A stretch of DNA of 64,000 nucleotides from Candidatus Rhodoblastus alkanivorans (GTDB taxonomy: Bacteria > Pseudomonadota > Alphaproteobacteria > Rhizobiales > Beijerinckiaceae). How positions within the stretch are numbered: position 1 is the first letter of the stretch; each line of letters starts with the position of its first letter. The translations under genes and the position numbers were made by a program. The stretch is from the NCBI RefSeq assembly GCF_022760755.1, contig NZ_JAIVFP010000001.1, forward strand, positions 3,514,001-3,578,000. Direction: 5' to 3'. Under the pieces are notes generated by a model that saw nothing but the letters and a program-made list of their open reading frames with translations, was not told the DNA's origin and ran no database searches. This document shows, piece by piece, positions 43,812-58,100 of this stretch.

Positions 43812-45260
43812 TCAATGCAGCGAGGCCGCGACATGCTGGAACCAGGCGACCAGCGGCGGCGGCAGATAGACGCCGGCGACCAGCACCGGCGCGAGATGAA
43901 GGATCATTGGCAAAGAGGTCGCCTTGACCGGCTGCAGCGAGCCCGTCGGCTCGCCGAAGGCCAAGCCGTGCAGCCTCAGCATGAGCGCGCCGAAGGCGAC
44001 GACGAGCCCGAACACGACCAGCGCCGCCAGCGCAGGCGCCTGCGCCACGGTGGAAGTGACGATCAGAAACTCGCTCATGAACACGCCGGCCGGCGGCATG
44101 CCAACAATGGCGATGACGCCGACGACGAGCGCCCACCCCAGGAAAGGATGGCTTGCGGTGAGGCCGCGGATTTCGGCGATCTGCTGGGTTCCCTTGACCT
44201 GCGAGACCTGGCCGACCGCGAAAAAGATCGCCGATTTGGTCAGGCTGTGCATCGCCATATGCAGAAGGCCGGCGAAATTGGCCAGGGCCCCGCCCATGCC
44301 GAAGGCGAAGACGATGATGCCCATATGTTCGATCGAGGAATAAGCGAACAGACGCTTGATGTCCCCGCGCCGGTACAGCATGAAGGCGGCGAAGACCAGC
44401 GACAGCAGGCCGAGCGTCATCATCAGCGGCCCCGGCGCGATCGCGCCCGGATTGGCCGACATCAAGAGCTTGAAGCGCAGCACGGCATAGAGCGCGACAT
44501 TGAGCAGCAGGCCGGACAGCACGGCCGAAATCGGCGTCGGCCCCTCGGCGTGGGCGTCGGGCAGCCAGGCGTGGAGCGGCGCGAGGCCCACCTTGGTTCC
44601 ATAGCCCAGCAGCAGGAAGACGAAGGCGAGATTGAGCAGCGCCGGGTCGAAACGCGCGACATGGGCGATCAGCACGGTCCATACCATGCCGTTGAGGCCT
44701 TCGCCGACCACCGGCCGCGCCGCCATATAGATCAGGATCGTGCCGAACAAAGCGAGCGCAATGCCGACGCTGCCGAGAATGAAATATTTCCACGCCGCCT
44801 CCAGCGCCGCCGGCGTGCGGTAGATGCCGACCATGACCACGGTGGTGAGCGTCGCGACCTCGATCGCGACCCACATCAGGCCGATGTTATTGGCGATCAG
44901 CGCCAGATTCATCGCCCCGAGCAGCAGTTGGTACATGGCGTGATAGAAGCGCAGATGGGTCCGCGTGAGACGATGGGCGCTCAGCTCATGGGCGATGTAG
45001 CTGGCGCTGAAGGCGCTGGTGGTGAAGGCGACGAAAGTGTTCAGGACGATGAAGACGATGTTGAGATCGTCCACCAGAAGATAGCGTCCGGTGGGCGGAC
45101 GCGCGACCAGCAGCGACAGGGCCGCGACGAAGGTCAGGAAGGACGACAAAATATTGAGCCGCGCCGAAGCGCGATAGGACTTCACGGCCGCGAGCACCGC
45201 CGCCGACAGCAGCGGCAGGAACAGGATGGCCTGAAGATTATGGGAGACCAGCGCGCTCAT
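43812..45260 (-). CDS. HyfF/NuoN-like proton-translocating antiporter subunit
   Basis: A 482-residue, about 14-TM Mrp-antiporter-type protein. Key pump residues are visible: Glu in LMWVAIEVATLT (TM5) and Lys in YGTKVGLAPLHAWLPDAH (TM7), followed by RGDIKRLFAYSSIEHMGII. It belongs with HyfF of formate hydrogenlyase-2 and would move protons or sodium. It overlaps the hyfE-like gene by 4 bases, marking a tight operon. Confidence 0.9.
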   Translation of the reverse strand: MSALVSHNLQAILFLPLLSAAVLAAVKSYRASARLNILSSFLTFVAALSLLVARPPTGRYLLVDDLNIVFIVLNTFVAFTTSAFSASYIAHELSAHRLTRTHLRFYHAMYQLLLGAMNLALIANNIGLMWVAIEVATLTTVVMVGIYRTPAALEAAWKYFILGSVGIALALFGTILIYMAARPVVGEGLNGMVWTVLIAHVARFDPALLNLAFVFLLLGYGTKVGLAPLHAWLPDAHAEGPTPISAVLSGLLLNVALYAVLRFKLLMSANPGAIAPGPLMMTLGLLSLVFAAFMLYRRGDIKRLFAYSSIEHMGIIVFAFGMGGALANFAGLLHMAMHSLTKSAIFFAVGQVSQVKGTQQIAEIRGLTASHPFLGWALVVGVIAIVGMPPAGVFMSEFLIVTSTVAQAPALAALVVFGLVVAFGALMLRLHGLAFGEPTGSLQPVKATSLPMILHLAPVLVAGVYLPPPLVAWFQHVAASLH

Positions 45261-45919
45261 CGGCGTTCGCCCCTGAAATCGTCGAGCGCCTGGAGATCGA
45301 CGGTGTCGAAGCGCTCGCGGATGCGGAACAGGAAGATGCCGATGACGATCAGCGCGATCAGGACCGAGAAGGCGACGCTGATCTCCACCACCAGGGGCAT
45401 GCCCTTGGCCCCTGCGGCGGCAAGGATCAGACCGTTTTCGAGCGACATGAAGCCGACCACCTGGCTGACGGCGTTGCTGCGCGTCACCATCATCAAGAGG
45501 CCGAGCAGGATCACGGAAAGCGCGAAGGCGAGATCCTCGCGCGCCAAAGGATCGGCGCCGTGGGTGACGCGCAGCATGACCACCATCGACAGAGCGACGA
45601 GACCGATTCCGGCCAGCATGGTCGGGACGAGGCTGACCACGGTTTCGACCTCGCGATGGACGCCGAGCCGCGCCACCATGCGATGCAGCGCCACGGGGAT
45701 GACCAGCGCCTTGAAGAACACCGCGATCGCGGCCGTGATGTAGAGGTGCGGCGCGTGCTGAATATGAGCCTGCCAGCCGACCGCCAGCGCCAAAGTCAGC
45801 GCCTGAAGCGCGAAGACGTTCAGGAGAGCATAGAGCCGGTCCTGATAGAGCAGCATGAAGCTGGTCAGGACCAGGCCGCCGGCGAGCAGATGGGCGATGT
45901 CGAAGGCGAGGCGATTCAT
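45257..45919 (-). CDS. HyfE/NuoK-like membrane subunit
   Basis: A 220-residue membrane protein with six or seven TM helices resembling HyfE (an N-terminal extension fused to a NuoK-like core: SQVVGFMSLENGLILAAAGAKGMPLVVEISVAFSVL with the conserved Glu residues). Sits between the hyfC- and hyfF-like genes, with ATGA overlap to the latter. Part of the proton-translocating arm. Confidence 0.88.
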   Translation of the reverse strand: MNRLAFDIAHLLAGGLVLTSFMLLYQDRLYALLNVFALQALTLALAVGWQAHIQHAPHLYITAAIAVFFKALVIPVALHRMVARLGVHREVETVVSLVPTMLAGIGLVALSMVVMLRVTHGADPLAREDLAFALSVILLGLLMMVTRSNAVSQVVGFMSLENGLILAAAGAKGMPLVVEISVAFSVLIALIVIGIFLFRIRERFDTVDLQALDDFRGERR

Positions 45920-45920
45920 G

Positions 45921-46877
45921 TCACATCTCCCGCGACACGAAGCGCAGCAAGGTGGCGAGCAGGCCGAGCATCAGCGCGACGCCGATGAAGTCCGGCACGC
46001 GGAACACCCGCATCTTGGCGACCGAGGTTTCGAACAGGGCCAGCAGCGCGCCGGCGCCGGCGAGCTTGGCGAGATAGGCGGCCGCGCCGAGGAGCAGGGC
46101 GCCCGGCGCGGCCCCGGTCGGCGCGAGGCCGAAGGGAACGAAAATGCAGGCGATCAGCGAGACATAGAGAAGCAGTTTGAGCTGCGCGGAAAGCTCGATC
46201 ATCGCGAGATGGCGGCCGGAATATTCCAGCACCATCGCCTCATGCACCATGGTCAATTCGAGATGGGTCGCTGGATTGTCCACCGGTATGCGCGCATTTT
46301 CGGCAAGCGCCACGATCACCAGCCCGATCATGGCGAGCCCGAGGGAAACGCGCACGCCCACCGCCGGCGACAGCATGAAAGCGGCGACAGTGGAAAGCTG
46401 GGTCGAGCCGGCGATCAAGGCAAGGGAAAAGACGACCATGAGCATCGCCGGCTCGGCGAGCGTCGCGAACATCATTTCCCGGCTGGAGCCGATGCCGCCG
46501 AAACTCGTGCCGACATCCATGCCGGCGAGCGCCAGGAAGAAGCGGGCGCTGCCGAGCAGGGCGGTGATCGCGATCAGATCGGCCGACCAGCTGAACAGCA
46601 GGCCGGTCGCGAAGGTCGGGACCAGAGCCGCCGCGACCCAGGTCGCCGCGAAGACGAGATAGGGAATGACGCGGAACAGCCAGGACGCGCTCTTCGCCAC
46701 AATGGTCTCTTTTTTTACGAGCTTGACGAGATCGCGATAGGGCTGGAGCAGCGGCGGGCCGCGCCGGCGCAACAGCCGCGCCTTGACCTTGCGAACAAGG
46801 CCGGTCAGCAGCGGCGCCGCGAGCAGCACGACGAGCATCTGGACGATCTGGACGGCAAGGTGGACGAGCAGCGTCAT
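45921..46877 (-). CDS. HyfC/NuoH-like membrane anchor subunit
   Basis: A 318-residue, eight-TM NuoH/HycD-family subunit that joins the hydrophilic module to the membrane arm. Conserved blocks: RRRGPPLLQPYRDLVKLVKKE and the loop AENARIPVDNPATHLELTMVHEAMVLEYSG typical of HyfC. Start ATG 46877, 4 bases after the hyfB-like stop; a longer frame would overlap it. One base separates its stop from the hyfE-like start. Confidence 0.9.
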   Translation of the reverse strand: MTLLVHLAVQIVQMLVVLLAAPLLTGLVRKVKARLLRRRGPPLLQPYRDLVKLVKKETIVAKSASWLFRVIPYLVFAATWVAAALVPTFATGLLFSWSADLIAITALLGSARFFLALAGMDVGTSFGGIGSSREMMFATLAEPAMLMVVFSLALIAGSTQLSTVAAFMLSPAVGVRVSLGLAMIGLVIVALAENARIPVDNPATHLELTMVHEAMVLEYSGRHLAMIELSAQLKLLLYVSLIACIFVPFGLAPTGAAPGALLLGAAAYLAKLAGAGALLALFETSVAKMRVFRVPDFIGVALMLGLLATLLRFVSREM

Positions 46878-46881
46878 GGCG

Positions 46882-48885
46882 TCACGTCCAGACCGCAAGG
46901 ACGAGCAACAGCAGCACCAGAGCCGCGAAAACCAGGCTGAGATATTGCCTTATGGTCAGGAACTGCAATTTGTTCAGCGCGTCCGCCACAGCCAGAACGC
47001 CGCGTGCGACCGGGCGATAGAGCGCGTCCCACACCAGATCCTGCACGGAAAGCTCGAAGCGGGCGGGACGAAGTTCGCCCGGCGCCGGCATATCGACCTT
47101 TTCGCGCGTCCGGAAGACGAAGCCGGCGAAGACCCTCCGCACCGGCTGGGCGAAACTCTCCGGCGTATATTGCGTCGCCGGGTCGGGGTCTGGAAAGCCG
47201 CAGTCCCAGGCCGGCGCGATTCGCGTGGCGTTCGAGGCGACGCGGTGGATCACGACCGCCGCGAGCAGCGCCGAACTGGCGATGAACAGGAAAACGAGCA
47301 TGCCGTCATAGGAGCTACGGCTTTCGGCGATCGGCGCGATGGCGAACCAGCCGAGACCCGCTTGCGTCGTCATCCGCGCGCCGACCAGTTTTTCGACGAT
47401 CGGGCCGAGCGCGTCCATGACGCTCCCCGGCAGGACGCCCGCGGCCAGACAGAGCGCCGCGAGCGCGCCCATGGCGCCGAGAGAAAAACGATCGACCTCT
47501 TTTGCCGCGCGCGCCGCTTCGCTGCGCGGCCGGCCGAGAAAGCTGACGCCAAAAAGCCGCACGAAACAGGCGCCCGCCAGGGCGGCGGCCAGCGCCAGAA
47601 GCGCGCCGACCGCCGGAATTTCCAGCTTGAGCGACCAGGACGGTAGCGAAGGGCTGAGGAGAATGGCCTGAAAGATCAGCCATTCCGAAGCGAAACCGTT
47701 GAGGGGCGGCAGGGCCGAGATCGCCGCGGCGCCGACCAGCATGAAGAGGCCGGTCGCAGGCATGAGGTTCAGGAGGCCGCCGAGACGGCCCATGTCGCGC
47801 TCGGACGTCGCCGTCAGCACCGCGCCCGAGCCGAAGAAGAGCAGGCTCTTGAACAGGGAATGGTTGAGGACATGGAACAAGGCGGCGGTCATCGCCAAAG
47901 CGGCGGCCGGGCCGTTGCCCTCGGTCTCGAAGGCCAGCGCCAGGCCGAGCGCGACAAAGACCACGCCGATATTCTCGATCGTGCTATAGGCCAGCACACG
48001 CTTGAGATCGTTATGGAGCAGCGCGAACAGCACCCCCACGACGGCGGTTGCGGCGCCCACCGCCATGACAGGAACGCCCCACCACCAGGCGGCCGGGCCG
48101 ATCAGGTCGAAGACGATGCGCAGGAAGGCGTAGATCGCGACCTTGGTCATGACGCCGCTCATCAGCGCGGAGACATGGCTCGGCGCGGCGGGATGGGCGA
48201 GAGGCAGCCAGAGATGGAGCGGGCTCAGGCCGGCCTTCGAGCCGGCGCCCATCAAGGCCAGCGCCAGAACGACGCCCGCGACCCCTGCGCCGGGCGAATG
48301 GCCGCGCATCGCGCCGAAACCGAAATCGCCGTCGGCGCCGCCGAGCAGGCCGAAGGCGAGCAGGAGCGCGAAGGTCCCAAGCGTCGCCATCAGAATATAG
48401 ACATAGCCGGCGCGGGCGTTGTCGCCTTCACGATGATGGGCCATGACCAGAGCCCAGGAGGCGAGCGACATCAACTCCCACGACAGGAGGAAGGCATAGG
48501 CGTCGTCGGCGAGGACGACGAGATTCATCGCGGCGAGGAAAAGCGGGAAGAAGGGCAGAACGCGGCCCGGCGCCGATTCGTGCCGGCCATAGCCCAAAGC
48601 GTAAAAGCTCGCGCCCGCCGCGCCGAAATTGACGATGGCGAGAAAAAAGGCCGACAAAGCGTCGATGCGGAAATGGGCGCCGAGCCAGGGCAGGCCGAGC
48701 GGCAGGGTCAGCGCCTCGGCCGGCGCCGCAGCGAACAGGTTTTGAACCGAGGCGACGAACATCGCGCCGCAGACCAGCAAGGCGCCGCCATAGACGAAGG
48801 AGGACATCCAGCGCGCGCGCAAAAGCGCGAACGCACCGAGCGCGACAAGCGCCGCGGCGCCGACCAGGCAAAGAACGAGAGTCAC
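46882..48885 (-). CDS. HyfB/NuoL-like proton-translocating antiporter subunit
   Basis: A 667-residue, about 16-TM Mrp-antiporter-type protein and the first gene of the six-gene operon. Pump residues: Glu in LLSWELMSLASWALV (TM5), Lys in GSKAGLSPLHLWLPLAHPAAPSHVSALMSGVMTK (TM7) and Lys in LLHNDLKRVLAYSTIENIG. GTG start at 48885. Together with the HyfF-like protein it gives two pumping modules, so the complex should be ion-translocating even without Ni-Fe chemistry. Confidence 0.9.
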   Translation of the reverse strand: MTLVLCLVGAAALVALGAFALLRARWMSSFVYGGALLVCGAMFVASVQNLFAAAPAEALTLPLGLPWLGAHFRIDALSAFFLAIVNFGAAGASFYALGYGRHESAPGRVLPFFPLFLAAMNLVVLADDAYAFLLSWELMSLASWALVMAHHREGDNARAGYVYILMATLGTFALLLAFGLLGGADGDFGFGAMRGHSPGAGVAGVVLALALMGAGSKAGLSPLHLWLPLAHPAAPSHVSALMSGVMTKVAIYAFLRIVFDLIGPAAWWWGVPVMAVGAATAVVGVLFALLHNDLKRVLAYSTIENIGVVFVALGLALAFETEGNGPAAALAMTAALFHVLNHSLFKSLLFFGSGAVLTATSERDMGRLGGLLNLMPATGLFMLVGAAAISALPPLNGFASEWLIFQAILLSPSLPSWSLKLEIPAVGALLALAAALAGACFVRLFGVSFLGRPRSEAARAAKEVDRFSLGAMGALAALCLAAGVLPGSVMDALGPIVEKLVGARMTTQAGLGWFAIAPIAESRSSYDGMLVFLFIASSALLAAVVIHRVASNATRIAPAWDCGFPDPDPATQYTPESFAQPVRRVFAGFVFRTREKVDMPAPGELRPARFELSVQDLVWDALYRPVARGVLAVADALNKLQFLTIRQYLSLVFAALVLLLLVLAVWT

Positions 48886-49467: not shown

Positions 49468-50565
49468 ATGAGCCCAAGCCCCGAACCGCCGGTCAGAAAA
49501 ATCCTCCACATCGACATGGACGCCTTCTATGCCTCCGTCGAGCAGCGGGACAATCCTGAATTGCGCGGCAAGCCGGTCGCGGTCGGCCATGGGCGGGCGC
49601 GCGGCGTGGTGGCGGCGGCGAGCTATGAGGCGCGGGCCTTCGGCGTCCATTCCGCCATGCCCTCGGTGACGGCGCAGCGCAAATGCCCCGACCTGATTTT
49701 TGCGCCGCCCCGTTTCGACGTCTATCGCCGGATTTCGCTGCAGATCAGAGAAATTTTCGCCCGCCGCACGCCAATCGTCGAGCCGCTCGCGCTCGACGAG
49801 GCTTTTCTCGACGTCACCGATTTTCTGGCGGCGGACGAGACCGCCACGGCGGCGGCGGAAGCGATTCGCGCCGCGATCCGCGCCGAAACCGGCCTCACCG
49901 CGTCGGCCGGCGTGTCCTACAACAAATTTTTGGCCAAAATGGCCTCGGACCAGCGCAAGCCGGACGGGCTTTTCGTCATCACGCCGAAAATAGGCCCCAG
50001 TTTTGTCGAAGCGCTGCCGGTCCACAAATTTCATGGCGTCGGCCCTGCGACAGCGGCGAAAATGCGGCGCCTCGGCATCGAGACCGGCGCCGACCTCAAG
50101 GCCTGCGCGCCCGAATTCCTGCGCAAGCATTTCGGCAAGGCGGGCGGCTTTTACTACGCCATCGCGCGCGGGATCGACGAACGCCCGGTCCGCCCGGATC
50201 GCGCGCGAAAATCGATCGGCGCCGAAAACACCTTTTTGGAGGATGTCTTCGCCTGCGAAGCCGCGCGGGACAGAATCGCGCCGATCGTGCAGAAAGTCTG
50301 GGCCGCCTGCGAACGCGCCCATCTGCGCGGCCGGACGGTGACGCTGAAAGTCAAATATGAGGATTTCCAGCAGGTCACCCGCGCCCATACCGCGCCGAAT
50401 CCGGTCGAATCCGCCGACGACCTGATGCGGCGCAGCCTTGCCTTGCTTGAGCCTTTGTTCCCGCCCAAAAAGGGCGTGCGGCTGCTTGGCGTCACCGTTT
50501 CCGCTTTCGCGGACCGCCCGCCCTCGCGCCAACTCGGCTTCGCCTTTTCGTCGGGCGACGATTGA
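49468..50565 (+). CDS. dinB: DNA polymerase IV
   Basis: A 365-residue Y-family translesion polymerase. Catalytic acids are in ILHIDMDAFYASVEQRDNPELRGKPVAVG (Asp and Asp near 12-14) and ALDEAFLDVT (Asp-Glu near 108-109). The HhH region (FHGVGPATAAKMRRLGIETGADL) and little-finger domain follow, ending near a possible beta-clamp motif (RQLGFAF). GGAGA 9 bases before the ATG. Follows the Xre gene closely. No LexA box recognised. Confidence 0.93.
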   Translation: MSPSPEPPVRKILHIDMDAFYASVEQRDNPELRGKPVAVGHGRARGVVAAASYEARAFGVHSAMPSVTAQRKCPDLIFAPPRFDVYRRISLQIREIFARRTPIVEPLALDEAFLDVTDFLAADETATAAAEAIRAAIRAETGLTASAGVSYNKFLAKMASDQRKPDGLFVITPKIGPSFVEALPVHKFHGVGPATAAKMRRLGIETGADLKACAPEFLRKHFGKAGGFYYAIARGIDERPVRPDRARKSIGAENTFLEDVFACEAARDRIAPIVQKVWAACERAHLRGRTVTLKVKYEDFQQVTRAHTAPNPVESADDLMRRSLALLEPLFPPKKGVRLLGVTVSAFADRPPSRQLGFAFSSGDD

Positions 50566-50570
50566 CGCCC

Positions 50571-50927
50571 TTAGCGGGACAATCCCTTATCCTTGAGTTC
50601 GTTGAGGTAGCTTTGCCAGATGATTTCTTGTCTGGCTCCGAGGTCGTAGAGATAGTCCCAGGTGTAGATGCCGGTTGAGTGCGTGTCGTCGAATTCCAGT
50701 TTTGCGGCGTAATTGCCGACCGGCTCGATCGCGGTGATCGCGACGTCGCGTTTGCCCGCGACGGTCTTGCGCTCTTCGGGCGAATGGCCCTGGACTTCGG
50801 CGCTGGGGCTTTCGACCCGCAGCAGTTCGGCGGGAAGGGCGAAGGCTTCGCCGTTCTCGAAGGTCACTTTCAACGTCCTGCCCTTGTCGGCGAGCTTCAA
50901 TTCGCTCGGCCATTTCGCGTCGCTCAT
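50571..50927 (-). CDS. DUF971-family protein
   Basis: A 118-residue protein of the DUF971 family (related to the N-terminal domain of gamma-butyrobetaine hydroxylase): LKLADKGRTLKVTFENGEAFALPAELLRVESPSAEVQGH, VGNYAAKLEFDDTHSTGIYTWDYLYDLG. DUF971 proteins are often linked with Fe-S cluster carriers of the Mrp/ApbC type, and an mrp gene lies 1.8 kb away across dsrA. GGGAGG before the ATG. Confidence 0.88.
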   Translation of the reverse strand: MSDAKWPSELKLADKGRTLKVTFENGEAFALPAELLRVESPSAEVQGHSPEERKTVAGKRDVAITAIEPVGNYAAKLEFDDTHSTGIYTWDYLYDLGARQEIIWQSYLNELKDKGLSR

Positions 50928-51238
50928 GTTCGTCCTCCCTGATCGCGCCGGCTGTCCGCGCCCGGCTCACTTTGCGTCCGCCACCCTCCCCGCGAGGGGG
51001 AGGAATTTGACAGATAGGGCCTAACCGGCTGATTCACAGCTCTGTTATCGGGTTTTGAGAAAAATTCCAATTTTGCCGGGCAAGTCCGTTTTCATATTCA
51101 TAATCCATGTTATGATGCGCCAAAATCACAAAAATGCGGCCCGGGGAACCAACTCCCGGCGGGAGAGATTTGCGAAGCTCACGCGAGAACCAACGATCGG
51201 CGCCGCACTTGCGCGGCGCCCGTATCTGGAGGACATCG
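50928..51238. promoter_or_regulatory. dsrA upstream region with two hairpins
   Basis: A 311-base gap between divergent genes. Before dsrA it holds CTCCC-GGC-GGGAG (51153-51165) and a perfect 8-bp stem GGCGCCGC/GCGGCGCC (51199-51206, 51213-51220) ending about 7 bases before the ribosome site. An AT-rich stretch at 51085-51120 probably contains the promoter; the hairpins suggest leader control. Confidence 0.5.
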
Positions 51239-52519
51239 ATGTCACAGGAAGAATCCAAAGCCCATCATCCCACGCCGATGCTCGACGAGCTTGAGAGCGG
51301 TCCGTGGCCGAGCTTCGTGTCGGGGCTGAAGCGTCTGCGCGACAACGCCGACGCGCAATATGCGCCGATGATGAACGACCTGCTCGGCCAGCTCGAACAT
51401 TCCTATGAGGAGCGGCTCGGCTTCTGGAAGGGCGGCACGGTTTCGGTGTTCGGCTATGGCGGCGGCGTCATTCCACGCTTTTCAGAAGTCGCCGACAAAT
51501 ATCCGGCTTCGAAAGAATTCCACACCCTGCGCGTCCAGCCCCCGGCCGGCATGCATTACGACACCAATGTCCTGCGCCAGCTCTGCGACATCTGGGAGAA
51601 GCACGGCTCGGGCCTGATCGCCTTCCACGGCCAGTCGGGCGACATCATGTTCCAGGGCTGTTCGAGCGAGAACGTCCAGCCGGCCTTCGACGAATTGAAC
51701 GAGATCGGCTTCGACCTCGGCGGCGCCGGCCCGGCGCTGCGCACCTCGATGAGCTGCGTCGGCCACGCCCGCTGCGAGATGTCCTGCTATGACGAGGTCA
51801 AGGCGCATCGCTCGGTGATCAACGAGTTTCTGGACGAGATGCATCGTCCGGCGCTGCCCTACAAGTTCAAGTTCAAGTTCTCGGGCTGCGGCAATGATTG
51901 CGTCAACGCCATCCATCGCGCCGATTTCGCGGTGATCGGCACCTGGCGCGACGACATGAAGGTCAATCAGGACGAGGTGAAGGCCTATGTCGGCCGGGTC
52001 GGGCGCAAATATGCGATCGACCATGTCATCGCCATGTGTCCGACCCGCGCGCTGTCGCTCAACGACGACGACACGCTCGATGTCGACAACAAGAGCTGCG
52101 TGCGCTGCATGCACTGCCTGAACGTGATGAACAAGGCGCTGGCGCCGGGCGACGACAAGGGCGCCTCGATCCTGGTCGGCGGCAAGCGCGCGCTCAAGGT
52201 CGGCGACCTGATGGGCACGATGCTCATTCCCTTCGTCAAGCTCGAGAGCGACGAGGATTACGAGAATCTGGTGGCGCTGGCCCGCCGGATGCTGGACTTC
52301 TTCGCCGACAACGCGCTGGAGCACGAGCGCATCGGCGAGACCATCGACCGCATCGGCCTGCCGATGTTCCTCGAGGCGATGGAGATCGAGCCGGACCCGA
52401 ACATGGTCAATCATCCGCGCACGTCCTGCTATGTGCGCACCGACGACTTCACCGACGAGGCGGAGAAATATTTCGAGCGCAAGGCCCGCGAAGCCGGCCT
52501 CGACGTCGCCGCCGACTGA
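51239..52519 (+). CDS. dsrA: Dissimilatory sulfite reductase alpha subunit, oxidative (rDsr) type, without adjacent dsrB
   Basis: A 426-residue DsrA. The N-terminus (TPMLDELESGPWPSFVSGLK) and body match the reverse-acting rDsrA of purple sulfur bacteria. Siroheme-[4Fe-4S] ligands are present: Cys173 and Cys179 in MSCVGHARCEM, Cys217 and Cys221 in FSGCGNDC, where the usual Pro of GCPNDC is Gly218. The ferredoxin domain has Cys267 (CPTRAL) and CVRCMHC (Cys287, 290, 293). In the alpha2beta2 enzyme DsrB is essential, yet the next gene is mrp and a terminator follows dsrA directly. ATG 51239 has GGAGG 5 bases upstream. Role inferred: oxidation of stored or persulfidic sulfur to sulfite if DsrB exists elsewhere. 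Confidence 0.92.
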   Translation: MSQEESKAHHPTPMLDELESGPWPSFVSGLKRLRDNADAQYAPMMNDLLGQLEHSYEERLGFWKGGTVSVFGYGGGVIPRFSEVADKYPASKEFHTLRVQPPAGMHYDTNVLRQLCDIWEKHGSGLIAFHGQSGDIMFQGCSSENVQPAFDELNEIGFDLGGAGPALRTSMSCVGHARCEMSCYDEVKAHRSVINEFLDEMHRPALPYKFKFKFSGCGNDCVNAIHRADFAVIGTWRDDMKVNQDEVKAYVGRVGRKYAIDHVIAMCPTRALSLNDDDTLDVDNKSCVRCMHCLNVMNKALAPGDDKGASILVGGKRALKVGDLMGTMLIPFVKLESDEDYENLVALARRMLDFFADNALEHERIGETIDRIGLPMFLEAMEIEPDPNMVNHPRTSCYVRTDDFTDEAEKYFERKAREAGLDVAAD

Positions 52520-52539
52520 GACCAGCGCAACGCCAATCA

Positions 52540-52575
52540 GGCCCCGCCCGCATGGCGGGGCCTTTGCGCTTTTTG
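52540..52575 (+). terminator. Rho-independent terminator after dsrA
   Basis: Perfect 9-bp stem GGCCCCGCC (52540-52548) and GGCGGGGCC (52554-52562) with loop CGCAT, followed by TTTGCGCTTTTT. It closes dsrA as a single-gene transcription unit. Confidence 0.8.
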
Positions 52576-52705
52576 GCGCGCGGCTCCCTCCGCCTTGCGG
52601 GGAGGGTCAGTCGGCGCGGCGGAGGCTGGACAAGCGCTCGGAACAATCACACATTTTGGAAACGCCGACGCGCTCGGGGCGAAGCGCGCGAAAAGGGTTA
52701 AGTTC

Positions 52706-53833
52706 ATGTTCAACAACGACGACATTCTTGCGGCTTTGAACAATGTTGCGGGGCCGGACGGCAAGACGCCGCTGCCGCAGTCCGGCGCGATCTCGGGCGT
52801 CAGCATCCGCGAGGGCAAGGTTTTCCTGTCGATTTCGGTGACGCCGGAGCAGGCTCCCCATTGCGAGCCGATGCGGCTGGCCGCGGAAGAGGCGCTCAAG
52901 GCTTTGCCCGGCGCCAAGGGCGCGCTGGCGGTGCTGACCTCGGAGCGCGCGCCGCAAAGCGCGCCGCAGGCCGCGCCGCAAAATGCGCCCAGAGGCGGCC
53001 ATGGCCACGCGCCGCGCGGCGCGAGCCAAGGCTCGGGCGTCGAGGGAATCAAGAAGATCGTCGCGGTGGCCTCGGGCAAGGGCGGCGTCGGCAAGTCCAC
53101 GACCTCGGCCAATCTGGCGATCGGCCTCGCCCGGCTCGGCTTGAAGGTCGGCCTGCTCGACGCCGACCTGTTCGGCCCGTCCCAGCCGCGGCTGTTCGGC
53201 CTTTCCGGACGCCCGGACCTGGCCGAGGGCGGCGCGCTCGTGCCGATGGAGAAGTTCGGCGTCAAGGTGATGTCGATCGGCTTCCTCGTTCCCGACGACG
53301 CGGCGATCGTATGGCGCGGGCCGATGGTGATGTCGGCCCTGACCCAATTGCTGCGCGACGTCTCTTGGGGAGAACTCGACGTGCTGGTGGTGGACATGCC
53401 GCCCGGCACCGGCGACACCCAGCTCACCATGGCGCAGAATGTCGGGCTCGCGGGCGCGGTGATCGTCTCGACGCCGCAGGACCTCGCCTTGATCGACGCG
53501 CGGCGCGGCATCGCCATGTTCAACCAGGTTCACGTGCCGATCATCGGCCTGTTCGAGAACATGAGCTATTTCCTGTGCCCGCATTGCGGCGGCCGCACCG
53601 AGATTTTCGCCCATGGCGGAGCCAGGGCCGAAGCCGAAAAGATGGACGTGCCCTTCCTCGGCGACGCCCCGCTCGACGCCATGGTGCGCGAAACCTCCGA
53701 CGCCGGCCTCCCCGTCGTCGCCAAGGACCCCGAAAGCCCCCAGGCCAAACCCTATCTCGCCCTCGCCGAAAAAGTCCGAGACGCCCTCAACCAGGCCCCA
53801 GCCAAAAAAGCCCCCAAAATCGCCGTCGAGTGA
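52706..53833 (+). CDS. mrp: Mrp/ApbC-type iron-sulfur cluster carrier ATPase
   Basis: A 375-residue P-loop protein: an N-terminal MIP18-like domain (1-75), an Ala/Pro/Gln linker, and a ParA-like ATPase (about 110-365) with ASGKGGVGKST, DADLFGPSQPRLFG, VVDMPPGTGDTQLT and the cluster-binding CPHCGG near 290. It delivers [4Fe-4S] clusters to apo-enzymes; the clusters of DsrA, the hydrogenase and the Hyf-like complex nearby are plausible clients. ATG 52706 chosen; the longer frame upstream crosses non-coding sequence. Confidence 0.92.
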   Translation: MFNNDDILAALNNVAGPDGKTPLPQSGAISGVSIREGKVFLSISVTPEQAPHCEPMRLAAEEALKALPGAKGALAVLTSERAPQSAPQAAPQNAPRGGHGHAPRGASQGSGVEGIKKIVAVASGKGGVGKSTTSANLAIGLARLGLKVGLLDADLFGPSQPRLFGLSGRPDLAEGGALVPMEKFGVKVMSIGFLVPDDAAIVWRGPMVMSALTQLLRDVSWGELDVLVVDMPPGTGDTQLTMAQNVGLAGAVIVSTPQDLALIDARRGIAMFNQVHVPIIGLFENMSYFLCPHCGGRTEIFAHGGARAEAEKMDVPFLGDAPLDAMVRETSDAGLPVVAKDPESPQAKPYLALAEKVRDALNQAPAKKAPKIAVE

Positions 53834-53881
53834 GGGGGTTCCCCTCACTCCAACGCCGCATCGAAGCGAATCCGGTCGCCC

Positions 53882-54364
53882 TTGGCCATCGATTTCAACA
53901 CTCGCCCCAACTGGATTCCCTGGCCGCCGATCCTGCTGATCGCGGCCGGGGGCGCCGCTTATTTGTTGCAGCGCGGCTTCCCGACCAGCGGCCTTCTCCC
54001 GGACTGGCTCATGAGTTTCGGCGAGGCGGTTTTGGCGCTGGGATTGGCTTTCGATTTCTGGGCGATGGGCGTGATGTTTCTTGCCCGCACCAATATCCTG
54101 CCCAATCGCGGCGCGGGGCGGCTGGTCACGCGCGGGCCCTTCACCCTGACCCGCAACCCGATCTATCTGGGCAACACGCTCCTCCTGATCGGGATCGGCC
54201 TCGCCTTCAGCGCGCTCTGGTTTCTGCCGCTGGCGCTGCTCGCCGCCTTTCTTGTCGACAGGCTGGCGATCCGGCGCGAGGAAGCGCATCTCGCCCTGCG
54301 CTTCGGGGCGGAATGGGAGGCCTATGCCGCAAAAACGCCGCGCTGGCTGAGATTGCCGTTCTGA
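53882..54364 (+). CDS. Isoprenylcysteine carboxyl-methyltransferase-like membrane protein
   Basis: A 160-residue protein with four or five TM helices of the ICMT/PEMT-like family: LVTRGPFTLTRNPIYLGNTLLLIG (the RNPxY SAM-site signature) and REEAHLALRFGAEWEAYAAKTPRWL at the end. Bacterial members likely methylate small or lipid substrates; substrate unknown. The start is a TTG at 53882 with only a weak ribosome site. Convergent with the cytochrome gene, 4 bases away. Confidence 0.82.
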   Translation: MAIDFNTRPNWIPWPPILLIAAGGAAYLLQRGFPTSGLLPDWLMSFGEAVLALGLAFDFWAMGVMFLARTNILPNRGAGRLVTRGPFTLTRNPIYLGNTLLLIGIGLAFSALWFLPLALLAAFLVDRLAIRREEAHLALRFGAEWEAYAAKTPRWLRLPF

Positions 54365-54368
54365 GCCT

Positions 54369-54842
54369 TCAGGGCTTTTGGGTCAGCCGGTAGGTTTTGT
54401 GGCAGGCCACGCAATATTCCATCGCATTGGCGAGATTGGCGTTGACGGCGAAGGGATCGGAACGCCCGGCCACCTCGGCGATGGCGTCGAAGGCCAGGCC
54501 GGTCTGCCGTCCCATCCTGCCGAAATCCGTGGGCAGCTCCATCGTCGCCCGATCCGGAAAGGTCTGAAAGGCGCCGGCCTTGCGGGCGGCCCGCGCGACG
54601 GCCGCCCAGTCGCGGCCGTTGGCGGCCTCGTCCGCCGCCTCGATGACGGCCACCATCCTGCGCATCTCGCCGAGGATCAGTGCGCGGGTCGGATCGCTGA
54701 CCGGAACCGCCTGCCGTCCATCCGCCACGAAGCGGGCCGGCGACGGCGTCCCGATCGCATCGGACGGCAACCGCGCCATGGCGATGCCTCCCGCGCAAAG
54801 CACCGCCGCCGCGATCGCCGCCATCAATGCAAATTTATGCAT
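54369..54842 (-). CDS. Periplasmic c'-type cytochrome
   Basis: A 157-residue exported cytochrome: signal peptide (about 1-23, ending GIAMA), a four-helix-bundle-type body and one haem site, CVACH, at 145-149 near the C-terminus, the layout of cytochrome c'. It follows the hydrogenase large subunit by 66 bases on the same strand, so it may be the last gene of the hydrogenase operon and serve as a periplasmic electron or NO/O2 ligand protein. Direct link to hydrogenase is inference. Confidence 0.85.
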   Translation of the reverse strand: MHKFALMAAIAAAVLCAGGIAMARLPSDAIGTPSPARFVADGRQAVPVSDPTRALILGEMRRMVAVIEAADEAANGRDWAAVARAARKAGAFQTFPDRATMELPTDFGRMGRQTGLAFDAIAEVAGRSDPFAVNANLANAMEYCVACHKTYRLTQKP

Positions 54843-54908: not shown

Positions 54909-56657
54909 TCAAGCCACCCGAATCGACGACATTTCCTCGCCGTCGGGATCGACCACATGCACCGCGCAGGCGATGCAGGGATCGAAGGAATGGATGGTGC
55001 GCTGGATTTCGAGCGGCTGGGATGGAACCGCCAAAGTGTGGCGGTCCTGCAGCGCCGCCTCATAGGCGCCGGGCTGGCCGGTGGCGTCGCGCGGGCCGGC
55101 GTTCCAGGTGCTCGGCACCACGGCTTGATAATTGTCGATCTTGCCGTTCTTGATCACGACCCAATGACCGAGCGCCCCGCGCGGCGCCTCCATGGCGCCG
55201 AAGCCGCGCGCCTCGCGCGGCCAGGTCGAGGGATCCCACATCGCCTCGTTGTGAACCGAGACCTCGCCTTTGCGGATATTGACCATGAGCGCGTCGAGCC
55301 AGCTGTCCATGTGATCGGCGATGATCTTGGATTCCAACGTGCGCGACGCGGTGCGTCCGAGCGTCGAAAACATGGCGGTGAGCGGAAGATCTAGCTTTTT
55401 CAGCGCCATATTGGCCAGTTCGCGGGTCTGCGCGTCGCCCTTGGCATAGAGCATCAGCACCCGCGCGAGCGGCCCGACCTCGACCGCCTTGCCGCGCCAG
55501 CGCGGCGATTTGAGCCAGGAATAGGATTTTTCGACATCGAGCTGGTCATAAGGCGGCTGCGGGCCGGAATAGGCAAGATTGGTCTCGCCGGCATAGGGAT
55601 GGAGGCCCGCCGTCTTGCCGGCGGAATAATCGTACCAGCTATGGGCCGCGAATTCCTGGATCTGGGCCGGATCGTTGAGATCGACCGGCTCGATGTGAGA
55701 AAGATCGCGTCCGACGATCACGCCGGCCGGAATGAGCATCGAATGGCTGCCGGCGCGGCCGTCGGCGGGGAAATCGCCATAGGTCATGAAATTGCCCAGG
55801 CCCTCGCCGCGCGCGAACCAGTCCTTGTAGAAGCCGGCGATGGCGAGCGTGTCTGGCAGATAGACCTCATCAACGAAGTCGCGCATCGATTTGATGATGC
55901 TGCGCACCTGATTGAGGGAGACGATATTGACCGCCGTCGAGGCGCTGCCGTTGCCCCCTTCGCCCGGGCCGGCGCTGATCGGCGACGGCGCGCCGCCGAC
56001 CAGAAAATTCGGATGCGGGTTCTTGCCGCCGAAAATCGTGTGGATCTGGACGACATTGCGCTGCCAGTTGAGCGCTTCGAGATAATGCGCCACGGCCATG
56101 AGATTGGCCTCGGGCGGCAGCTTGTAGCCCGGATTGCCCCAGAATCCATTGGCGAAAATGCCGAGCTGGCCCGAATTGACGAAGGTCTGGAGACGCTTCT
56201 GGACGTCGGAAAAATAGCCGGGGCTGGATTTGGCGTAAGTGGAAATGCTCTGCGCCAGCGCCGAGGTCGCCTTGGGATCGGCCTTCAGCGCCGAGACCAC
56301 GTCCACCCAGTCCAAAGCATGGAGATGATAGAAATGCATGACATGGTCATGCACATATTGGGCGGAGATCATCAGATTGCGGATGAGCTGAGCGTTGGGC
56401 GGAATGTCATAGCCCAAGGCGTTTTCCACCGCGCGCACCGAAGCGATGCCGTGAACCAGAGTGCAGACGCCGCAGATGCGCTGGGCGAAGGCCCAGGCCT
56501 CGCGCGGGTCCCGATCTTTCAGGATCAGCTCGATGCCGCGCACCATGGTCCCGGAGGAATAGGCCTGGCGGATGGCGTTGCCTTCGCCCAGTTCGGCTTC
56601 GATTCGCAGATGGCCCTCGATCCGGGTGATCGGGTCCACGACGACGCGCTTGCTCAT
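54909..56657 (-). CDS. hynL: Group 1e (Isp-type) [NiFe]-hydrogenase large subunit
   Basis: A 582-residue catalytic subunit with both Ni-Fe ligand pairs: RICGVCTLVH (Cys62, Cys65) and DPCIACAVH (Cys561, Cys564). A 15-residue C-terminal tail after His567 is the maturation-protease substrate. It oxidises or produces H2 in the periplasm with the Tat-exported small subunit. Separated from it by isp1 and isp2, the gene order typical of Isp-type hydrogenases of sulfur-oxidising phototrophs. ATG 56657 with GAGGAAAA upstream; the longer frame lies in a REP-like element. Confidence 0.95.
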   Translation of the reverse strand: MSKRVVVDPITRIEGHLRIEAELGEGNAIRQAYSSGTMVRGIELILKDRDPREAWAFAQRICGVCTLVHGIASVRAVENALGYDIPPNAQLIRNLMISAQYVHDHVMHFYHLHALDWVDVVSALKADPKATSALAQSISTYAKSSPGYFSDVQKRLQTFVNSGQLGIFANGFWGNPGYKLPPEANLMAVAHYLEALNWQRNVVQIHTIFGGKNPHPNFLVGGAPSPISAGPGEGGNGSASTAVNIVSLNQVRSIIKSMRDFVDEVYLPDTLAIAGFYKDWFARGEGLGNFMTYGDFPADGRAGSHSMLIPAGVIVGRDLSHIEPVDLNDPAQIQEFAAHSWYDYSAGKTAGLHPYAGETNLAYSGPQPPYDQLDVEKSYSWLKSPRWRGKAVEVGPLARVLMLYAKGDAQTRELANMALKKLDLPLTAMFSTLGRTASRTLESKIIADHMDSWLDALMVNIRKGEVSVHNEAMWDPSTWPREARGFGAMEAPRGALGHWVVIKNGKIDNYQAVVPSTWNAGPRDATGQPGAYEAALQDRHTLAVPSQPLEIQRTIHSFDPCIACAVHVVDPDGEEMSSIRVA

Positions 56658-56687
56658 GGCATTTTCCTCGATGCGGGTGTTCTGTCC

Positions 56688-56786
56688 GAGCATGTTGCGT
56701 TTCCACGGAAACGAAACATGCTCCTACCTCTTTGATTGAGGATGATCTTTTCCGAAAGCCGGATTCCACTTTCCGGGATCATGCTC
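56688..56786. repeat. REP-like element, copy B (inside the hydrogenase operon)
   Basis: A 99-base element with stem GAGCATGTT/AACATGCTC, TTTCCAC loop, a TTTGATTG box and the GATCTTTTCCGAAAGCCGG...CCACTTTCCGGGATCATGCTC core; closely similar to copy A at 9265-9361. It fills the gap between isp2 and the large-subunit gene. Confidence 0.85.
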
Positions 56787-56792
56787 TTGCTT

Positions 56793-58100
56793 TCAGTCTT
56801 CGAGATTGTCGGCCACGAGCTCCAGCAGGCTCTCGACCTTCTGGTCCCATTTGGCGTGCTTGGCCCCGAGCGTCAGCGTGATCCGGCACTGGCCGCAGGC
56901 GGTGACGAAATGCTGGGCGTGAGCGTCCTCGACCTGCTTGCGCTTGATCTCGAAGGCCTTGAAGCGCAGCGGGTCGGCGCGGACGTTGGAGACCACGCCA
57001 CCGCCGCCGCCACAGCACCAGCCGAGTTCGCCGTGGTCCTCGAATTCCTTCAGCTCCAGGCCGAGCGCCTTGAGCACCGCGCGCGGCTCCTGGATCACGC
57101 CGCCACGGCGCCCGAGCTGGCAGGGATCGTGGAAAGAGGTGGTTTCGCCGATCGTCTTCAGCTTGATCTTGCCGTTGGCGACGACCTCGGCGAGGAACTC
57201 CGTCATATGGATGATCCGCACCGGAAGCTTCTTGCCGTACCAGCGCGAAGCCTCCCAGCGCGCCGCGCCGTAGGCGTGGCCGCATTCCGGCAGGATGATC
57301 GTATGCGCGCCGATGGCGATCGCATTGTCGATCATCTTGCGGGTCATCTTTTCCTGCAGGTCGAGATCGCCGTTGATATAGCCGATGTTGGAGGCCTCGA
57401 ATCCCTCGCTGCTATAGGTCCAGCTCGCGCCGATCTTGTTGAGGATCTTGGCGACGTCGGTCAGCGCCTTGGTGTGTTCGGTGAGCTCCGCGGGCGCGGT
57501 AGTGACGACGTAATCGGCCTTGGGCAAGTCGATATTGACCGGCACGCCATTCTCTTCGCTGGCGTCGCGGACGATGTCGGCGAAATCGTCGGACGGCGTC
57601 GCCGGGCTGCCCCAGGCCTTGGTGGTGCGGTCCATCAGTTCGAGGCGGTCGGGCACCAGCCCGGCCTTGTACATGCCGTGCCGCGCCTCCTTGATCAGTT
57701 CGGAAATGTCGATGCCCATCGGACAGGCGAGCGTGCAGCGCCCGCACAGGCTGCAGGCGTCGAACAGCAGCGATTCCCATTCCTGCAGCATCTCGATCGA
57801 GACGTTGGATTTGATGCCGAGCAACCGGTAGATCGGCGCGAACGGCCCGACATGCCGGTTATAGGCCTGTTCGAACGGCTTGAGCTTGTTGATTGGGGTA
57901 TATTTCGGCTCGCCGGTCGTCACATAATACTGGCAGGCGTTGGCGCACATGCCGCAGCGCAGGCAGGATTCCATATGGATCGCCGCCGTGCGCGCGAAAT
58001 CGCGCACGAAGGCCTGCATCGCGGCGTCGCGGCGCTCCGTGTCGGCGCGATCGCCCTGCACGTCATAAGCGACGCCCGAGGCTGTCGTCTTGGCGGTCAT
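56793..58100 (-). CDS. isp2: Isp2: HdrD/DsrK-like iron-sulfur subunit
   Basis: A 435-residue cytoplasmic Fe-S protein. Two [4Fe-4S] motifs are at Cys46/49/52/56 (CLRCGMCANAC) and Cys116/119/122/126 (CSLCGRCTLACP). Two CCG domains follow (PECGHAYG; HDPCQLGRRGG; WCCGGGGGVVS; ACGQC), as in heterodisulfide reductase HdrD and in DsrK. With Isp1 it passes hydrogenase electrons across or into the membrane, possibly to a thiol/disulfide acceptor. Overlaps isp1 by 4 bases. Confidence 0.92.
   Translation of the reverse strand: MTAKTTASGVAYDVQGDRADTERRDAAMQAFVRDFARTAAIHMESCLRCGMCANACQYYVTTGEPKYTPINKLKPFEQAYNRHVGPFAPIYRLLGIKSNVSIEMLQEWESLLFDACSLCGRCTLACPMGIDISELIKEARHGMYKAGLVPDRLELMDRTTKAWGSPATPSDDFADIVRDASEENGVPVNIDLPKADYVVTTAPAELTEHTKALTDVAKILNKIGASWTYSSEGFEASNIGYINGDLDLQEKMTRKMIDNAIAIGAHTIILPECGHAYGAARWEASRWYGKKLPVRIIHMTEFLAEVVANGKIKLKTIGETTSFHDPCQLGRRGGVIQEPRAVLKALGLELKEFEDHGELGWCCGGGGGVVSNVRADPLRFKAFEIKRKQVEDAHAQHFVTACGQCRITLTLGAKHAKWDQKVESLLELVADNLED

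Follow-up and report, generated by a model that had tools for sequence, protein, structure and literature searches.

Lone dsrA genes in Candidatus Rhodoblastus alkanivorans as conserved paralogues of the dsr operon gene

DsrAB is treated as an obligate, equimolar α2β2 enzyme encoded by adjacent genes, and DsrEFH and DsrL are markers of the oxidative type (rDsrAB), found in dsrABEFHCMKLJOP operons. Bacterial gene families such as tuf and psbA are kept alike by gene conversion. Duplications within dsr systems have been described as well. Passages of two reports mention C. tepidum, whose dsrAB copies are nearly identical although one carries a frameshift (PMC2702494), and ‘Ca. Magnetaquicoccus’ UR-1, which has two dsrABL (PMC6783814). 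Part of another source describes 191 sulfur phage contigs that carry dsrA but no dsrB, and its authors ask why (PMC8190135). Finally, an excerpt on the HCF101-type Fe-S scaffold places FSCA, ParA and DUF971 in one protein (PMC7980591).

Here we consider a dsrA gene in a window of 64,000 nucleotides (C1:3514001-3578000) of the Candidatus Rhodoblastus alkanivorans genome (G000; 4.35 Mb, 5 contigs). Its product resembles operonic rDsrAB in that it fits the family model and equals the operonic subunit over residues 9-426, but the gene stands alone, with its own terminator and no dsrB, between a DUF971 gene and mrp. As in C. tepidum and ‘Ca. Magnetaquicoccus’, dsr genes are duplicated; in those organisms, as the cited passages have it, dsrA and dsrB were duplicated together to give more than one dsrAB, whereas in G000 dsrA alone is duplicated. 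As in the phage contigs, going by the cited part of PMC8190135, extra dsrA is supplied without dsrB; the window copy, however, is chromosomal, kept across species and nearly identical to the operon gene of its host. As with tuf and psbA, dispersed copies are homogenised within the genome, but in G000 they encode one subunit of an obligate heteromer without its partner. The genes flanking dsrA carry the same domains as HCF101 in the excerpt cited, namely FeS_assembly_P and ParA (mrp) and DUF971. They differ in that the domains are split over two divergently placed genes, and the DUF971 of the window has no cysteine and hence no CxCxxC motif of the kind given in that excerpt (PMC7980591). In the open-access literature searched, we came across no description of a chromosome in which dsrA alone is duplicated and its copies stay alike through conversion.

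A scan of viral sequences with the window DsrA returned three loci (63-67% identical). One of these (L198) has both dsrA and dsrB. Within the stretches examined, the other two lack dsrB: L200 contains dsrA, and L199 contains dsrA plus two dsrC-like matches.

The lone dsrA and the dsr operon

The lone dsrA (51239..52519, plus strand) is an intact ORF for 426 aa that scores 569.9 bits against the NCBIfam DsrA equivalog model TIGR02064 (cut-off 392.85). Eight of its 12 cysteines (C173, C179, C217, C221, C267, C287, C290 and C293) are the cluster cysteines; their roles as ligands in the siroheme/[4Fe-4S] and ferredoxin domains are ones that we assume from known Dsr structures. We looked for signs of pseudogenes in the full-length dsrA copies and found no internal stop. 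The gene is followed by a terminator-like hairpin with a T-rich tail (52539..52574, plus strand, by folding). The hairpin itself (52539-52563) has a predicted stability of −23 kcal/mol (z −2.58), equalled by 3 of 200 shuffled sequences. After the T-rich stretch comes mrp, and dsrB is absent at the locus. These results bear out the first-pass annotation, which had described a full-length DsrA with all eight Fe-S/siroheme cysteines, followed by a terminator and mrp and lacking dsrB beside it. Of the span that it assigned (51239-52575), the start holds and the end does not, since 52575 takes in the terminator and the ORF stops at 52519.

A monocistronic, terminator-ended dsrA without dsrB had been called unusual, and comparison with related loci agrees. 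Among the best 80 of 561 confirmed relatives, dsrB lies directly 3′ of dsrA at 77 loci, and the remaining three end 2-253 bases past dsrA. Hairpins in the dsrA-dsrB spacer vary widely between loci (88 loci, 5 with negative spacers that stem from misassigned short dsrA pieces). The glycine in SGCGNDC had also been put forward as an oddity. At the position of Gly218, the same best 80 of 561 relatives have G at 19 loci, P at 40, A at 20 and S at 1; glycine is thus ordinary there, and we dropped Gly218 as a special feature.

The term ‘orphan’ implied a genome without dsrB, and a search of the genome itself excludes this. Three full dsrA genes are present in G000: the window copy, one at C1:2256892 (plus strand) and one at C1:3200199-3201455 (minus strand). 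Only the last adjoins dsrB; it lies on the same contig, ∼364 kb from the window copy, and belongs to an operon of dsrAB and dsrEFHCMKLJOP-like genes. DsrB scores 510.1 bits against TIGR02066 (cut-off 341.5), and DsrE, DsrH, DsrC, DsrK and DsrO are also above their model cut-offs. Best matches for DsrF (91.8 bits, cut-off 94.15), DsrM, DsrJ and DsrP fall below the cut-offs, and DsrL was named from its position and a match to NAD(P)-binding Fe-S flavoproteins. dsrEFH and dsrL thus accompany dsrAB, the combination that marks the oxidative type; DsrL is presented as such a marker in the part of PMC7596348 cited here. Among the matches listed, the closest relatives of the window DsrA are from Alphaproteobacteria and Chromatiaceae.

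Residues 9-426 of DsrA are identical across all three copies by exact comparison, and the tract homologous to operonic dsrA (51263..52547, plus strand) shows 98.76% DNA identity in a local alignment. The window dsrA is, then, a paralogue of the operon gene and is conserved. The first-pass annotation had said that another dsrAB cluster containing a dsrA would refute its view, and the genome has one. Neither of the two readings that it offered holds. The locus was not split, as dsrA was copied rather than moved and the operon copy is still beside dsrB. As for an independently used sulfite-reductase-like protein, the identity of residues 9-426 to the operonic subunit means that no feature of the sequence points to a separate enzyme.

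Near the operon, but on the other strand, is a TauD-family dioxygenase gene (PF02668; L006 11685-12623), as is the case at 49 of the best 80 of 561 related loci. DUF971, the neighbour of the lone dsrA, is Pfam's N-terminal domain of gamma-butyrobetaine-hydroxylase-like proteins. This parallel between the two neighbours may be chance, or it may be a trace of how the dsrA copy landed.

Upstream of the lone dsrA is a promoter-like block, TTTTCATATTC-N8-TGTTATGAT (51089..51116, plus strand). The end of this 28-bp block is 122 nt from the start codon in the window and 109 nt in the operon, and close variants occur 101-113 nt before the start codon in four relatives (G005, G006, G007 and G008). The consensus is TTYTCATATTC-NN-A-N5-TGTTATGAT. 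One caveat here is that these very dsrA loci served to define the pattern; the three matches that it has in the whole G000 genome, each upstream of dsrA (reversed control, 0), thus show rarity and not function. A looser pattern, with 2 mismatches allowed, still gave those three matches only (reversed control, 0). We take TGTTATGAT to resemble an extended −10 element, and the block may act as a promoter. We sought a link of the block to SoxR/sHdrR and found none in the literature consulted, which includes a portion of PMC12423496.

The DUF971-dsrA-mrp cassette in G000 and its relatives

The lone dsrA is the middle gene of a DUF971-dsrA-mrp cassette (50568..53837), and a second 3,270-bp copy without mismatch (L005 9222-12491; C1 ∼2.256-2.259 Mb) lies 1.31 Mb from the window in the same orientation. 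The DUF971 gene (Pfam GBBH-like_N; 50571..50927, minus strand; 118 aa, PF06155 99.9 bits) is upstream of dsrA and divergent from it. The mrp/apbC-type Fe-S carrier gene (52706..53833, plus strand; 375 aa) encodes FeS_assembly_P and ParA/NUBPL domains, and its product scores 316.7 bits against the NCBIfam ApbC model, below the cut-off of 348. The cassette extends to 3 bp outside the DUF971 stop codon and 4 bp past the mrp stop codon, and beyond these edges the flanks of the two copies are unrelated. The window cassette is flanked by dinB on the left (49468..50565, plus strand) and an isoprenylcysteine-methyltransferase-like gene, ICMT, on the right (53882..54364, plus strand; the name is our presumption), versus DUF2189 and a dsbA-like gene at L005.

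A phage setting was not found for the window dsrA, which sits between dinB and ICMT. The second cassette, unlike that of the window, is near a Mu-like head gene, with DUF2189 in between. The stretch L005 4630-7705, ∼0.6 kb from DUF2189, contains this gene (PF10124, Mu-like major head protein, 352.3 bits) and, after it, a long ORF that resembles a tape-measure protein and has no Pfam match. The cassette ends (window 50568-50573 and 53831-53837) read CCCTTA...TGAGGGG, a short imperfect inverted repeat built from the outer stop codons. Such ends (CCCTTA...TRAGGG) are present in G000, with a similar pair in G006, and are missing at the left end in G007, so we do not claim a mobile element.

A search for dsrA in 11 same-genus genomes (E 1e-30) gave matches in five: three each in G000, G005 and G007 and one each in G002 and G008. 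Of 397 family genomes sampled, 12 matched at 1e-60, and G000, G005 and G007 alone had more than one match. G002 and G008 carry a dsr operon and no lone dsrA, which indicates that the lone copy is dispensable. In G008, mrp and DUF971 are nonetheless ∼0.5 kb apart, so the linkage of these two genes need not depend on dsrA.

In G007, four contigs carry pieces of dsrA. One has DUF2189-DUF971-dsrA(1-197) and is broken at its end, and a second starts with a dsrA 3′ end followed by the same hairpin as in the window and then mrp. A third ends with a TauD-like gene and dsrA(1-197), and a fourth has a dsrA 3′ end and dsrB. At their ends, the two 5′ pieces have exactly 127 nt in common, and so have the two 3′ pieces, indicating that the assembler broke at a repeat. 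These ends imply two dsrA genes, the operonic one and another flanked by DUF971 and mrp. An assembly join between dsrA and mrp, within 52,520-52,700, had been raised as a concern; it finds no support, as the dsrA-terminator-mrp junction also occurs in G007. In that genome dinB and ICMT are directly adjacent with no cassette between them, and the contig with mrp carries the mcp and DUF4399-like neighbours of the L005 site. Together with the DUF2189-DUF971-dsrA contig, these observations favour the L005 site as the older one, and we rejected the window cassette as the original site.

In G005, DUF2189-DUF971-dsrA continues into dsrB and the operon (L100, G005:C245, 2203-4639), and the TauD-side dsrA(1-185) is at the end of a separate contig. 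A search for mrp (E 1e-60) returned nothing in this genome. The join of dsrA to dsrB reflects either a rearrangement between copies or a misjoin, the contig being from a low-coverage metagenome assembly (cov_4.42). The DUF971-dsrA adjacency recurs in both G005 and G007, with dsrB in place of mrp after dsrA in G005.

G006 had no dsrA match (1e-30 in the genus set, 1e-60 in the family sample), because the repeat sequence is missing from the assembly. Four of its contigs end 127 nt into the cassette. Two do so at the DUF971 border, one beside dinB and one beside DUF2189, and two at the mrp border, one beside ICMT and one beside the dsbA-like gene. Within each pair exactly 127 nt are shared, and the sequences part at the same gene edges at which the two G000 copies do. 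Both cassette sites are thus present in G006, although near the cassette borders many aligned positions differ between G006 and G000. The contig ends suggest that the cassettes of G006 contain dsrA, that stretch being the one missing from the assembly. The operonic dsrA of G006 is broken by contig ends on both sides.

A further, diverged dsr cluster, with a DsrA 78-79% identical, is present in G007 (L102, C54) and G005 (L103, C179). In G007, a contig end cuts off the dsrK of this cluster, and exactly 127 nt at that end also occur in dsrK of the main operon, so dsrK may be homogenised too in this genome.

Homogenised dsrA copies and what they may supply

From the TPML motif onward, the window and operon dsrA of G000 differ at 7 of 1,248 nt, with seven synonymous and no nonsynonymous codon differences. 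Six of these are confined to nt 111-240 and the remaining one is at nt 1,233, leaving an identical run of 992 nt. A difference-free gap of that length has a p of about 1e-4 if seven positions are placed at random. For the other two genomes the comparison covers the 5′ part of the gene, where the G007 pair differs at 26 of 558 nt, all before nt 433 (16 synonymous and 7 nonsynonymous codons), and the G005 pair at 27 of 522 nt (20 and 5). Given the nonsynonymous differences, the DsrA copies of G005 and G007 are not identical proteins.

A tree of dsrA coding DNA (519 nt, 15 sequences) pairs the lone copy with the operon copy by genome in G000 (99/98) and G007 (92/94); the four G005/G007 rows cluster at 99/98, with the G005 pair unresolved. 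Identity over the upstream 200 nt is 70-95% between lone copies and 64-85% between operon copies, versus 58-62% between lone and operon copies. Upstream DNA thus clusters by locus and coding DNA by genome (G000, G005 and G007, the G005 fork being weak), which is the signature of concerted evolution. The N-termini also go with the locus. DUF971-side copies begin MSQEE[SA]K, in frame, in G000, G005 and G007, and operon-side copies begin MSQDDSIRTEG in G000, G005, G006 and G007. Concerted evolution should further leave discrete identical tracts with diverged borders, and we found these in the 992-nt run and in the 127-nt ends of G006 and G007. Gene conversion with the operon copy has probably homogenised the dsrA copies. 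The data fit a single duplication after which the coding part underwent conversion repeatedly; they do not fit separate recent duplications that entered the same gap with an identical leader.

We propose the following course of events from what was observed, namely the number of copies and their identity, synteny in relatives, homogenisation, the upstream block that the copies share, and the terminator. An ancestor would have placed a copy of dsrA, with the promoter-like block and the trailing hairpin, between DUF971 and mrp. The whole cassette would then have been copied again, to a site between dinB and ICMT, in the lineage of G000 and G006. Gene conversion between copies would repeatedly overwrite the coding part, except for roughly the first eight codons, which stay specific to each locus along with its leader. 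The lone dsrA would be transcribed from a dsr-like promoter, affecting the DsrA:DsrB ratio, and the extra DsrA from the cassette would pair with operonic DsrB, giving ordinary oxidative rDsrAB and a surplus of the alpha subunit. A role of Mrp and DUF971 in cluster loading, and a physiological benefit, are likewise presumed. Paralogue origin, conversion and extra alpha subunit, taken together, are the reading that we favour, with reasonable though far from complete confidence.

The main alternative is that the lone copies are neutral passengers, functionless and intact only through conversion from the operon. The homogenised part is, after all, the coding tract, conversion from a functional donor can hold an ORF open without selection on the recipient, and two same-genus genomes with a dsr operon (G002 and G008) do without a lone copy. 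However, outside the converted tract the start codon, the frame and the short orphan N-terminus are intact in G000, G005 and G007. The upstream block is also retained, as is the terminator hairpin in G000 and G007. We judge this explanation unlikely, if still worth keeping in mind.

A second possibility is a recombination switch, in which exchange between inverted dsrA copies would place either the TauD-like or the DUF971 neighbourhood 5′ of the operon. The strands would allow it in G000 (operon on minus, cassettes on plus), and the G005 arrangement, with DUF971-side dsrA leading into dsrB and the operon and the TauD-side dsrA end elsewhere, is one predicted inversion product. That contig, though, is from the low-coverage metagenome assembly (cov_4.42), the second junction that an inversion predicts (TauD side-dsrA-mrp) did not turn up, and switching would alter little as the same block is in both upstream regions. 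All this makes a switch very improbable. We give slightly less credence again to a lone DsrA that acts independently of DsrB, either homo-oligomeric or joined to a different partner. A monocistronic gene with its own promoter-like block and terminator would suit such an enzyme, but residues 9-426 are identical to those of the DsrB-paired copy of the same genome, and selection for another role should oppose repeated overwriting by operonic sequence. Least credible is an assembly artefact, with the cassette falsely duplicated or misjoined or the copies equalised by polishing: a mismatch-free 3,270-bp repeat is the type of sequence that read polishing can homogenise, but independent assemblies of other species share the junctions, G006 has both cassette sites, and G007 has one cassette site plus an empty dinB-ICMT site.

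What remains, on sequence grounds, is a conserved and apparently homogenised duplication of the alpha subunit only, with putative dsr-like control. One idea for an alpha-only copy is that maturation of DsrA is limiting, as the flanking Mrp (FeS_assembly_P and ParA) and DUF971 fit this; the lack of cysteine in the window DUF971 argues against it. A broader proposal is that DsrA rather than DsrB limits oxidative Dsr or is quickly lost from it; that the clade corrects for this through the DUF971-dsrA-mrp cassette, with a split HCF101-like loader, operon-like control and gene conversion; and that dsrA-only phages exploit the same bottleneck. We advance it tentatively, as a conjecture that may well be wrong.

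If the favoured reading of an extra alpha subunit is true, a conserved, separately controlled supply of alpha alone would point to unequal demand for the two subunits. The question posed in the cited part of PMC8190135, why phages carry dsrA and not dsrB, would then become testable. Should expression reveal a real subunit excess, the duplication gains interest. For sequence surveys, dsrA copy counts and dsrA-only trees are distorted in this genus, because copies collapse in short-read assemblies and homogenise within genomes. G006 is an example of such collapse, having no dsrA match at 1e-30 and yet contig ends that indicate several copies.

Neighbouring genes in the window

Downstream of ICMT is a small gene (54369-54842) that we presume to be cytochrome-c-like. 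A [NiFe]-hydrogenase large subunit is encoded within 54909-58100 (best NCBIfam model 714.8 bits, below the cut-off of 1101), and beside it a DsrK/TmcB-like Fe-S protein (NF045796, 193.4 bits, below the cut-off of 400). This neighbourhood of hydL, hydK and ICMT is conserved in G005, G006 and G007. The minus-strand genes at 43812-48885 resemble, on visual inspection, a membrane module of the hydrogenase-4/Hyf or Nuo type, and one gene of this module also adjoins dinB in G006.
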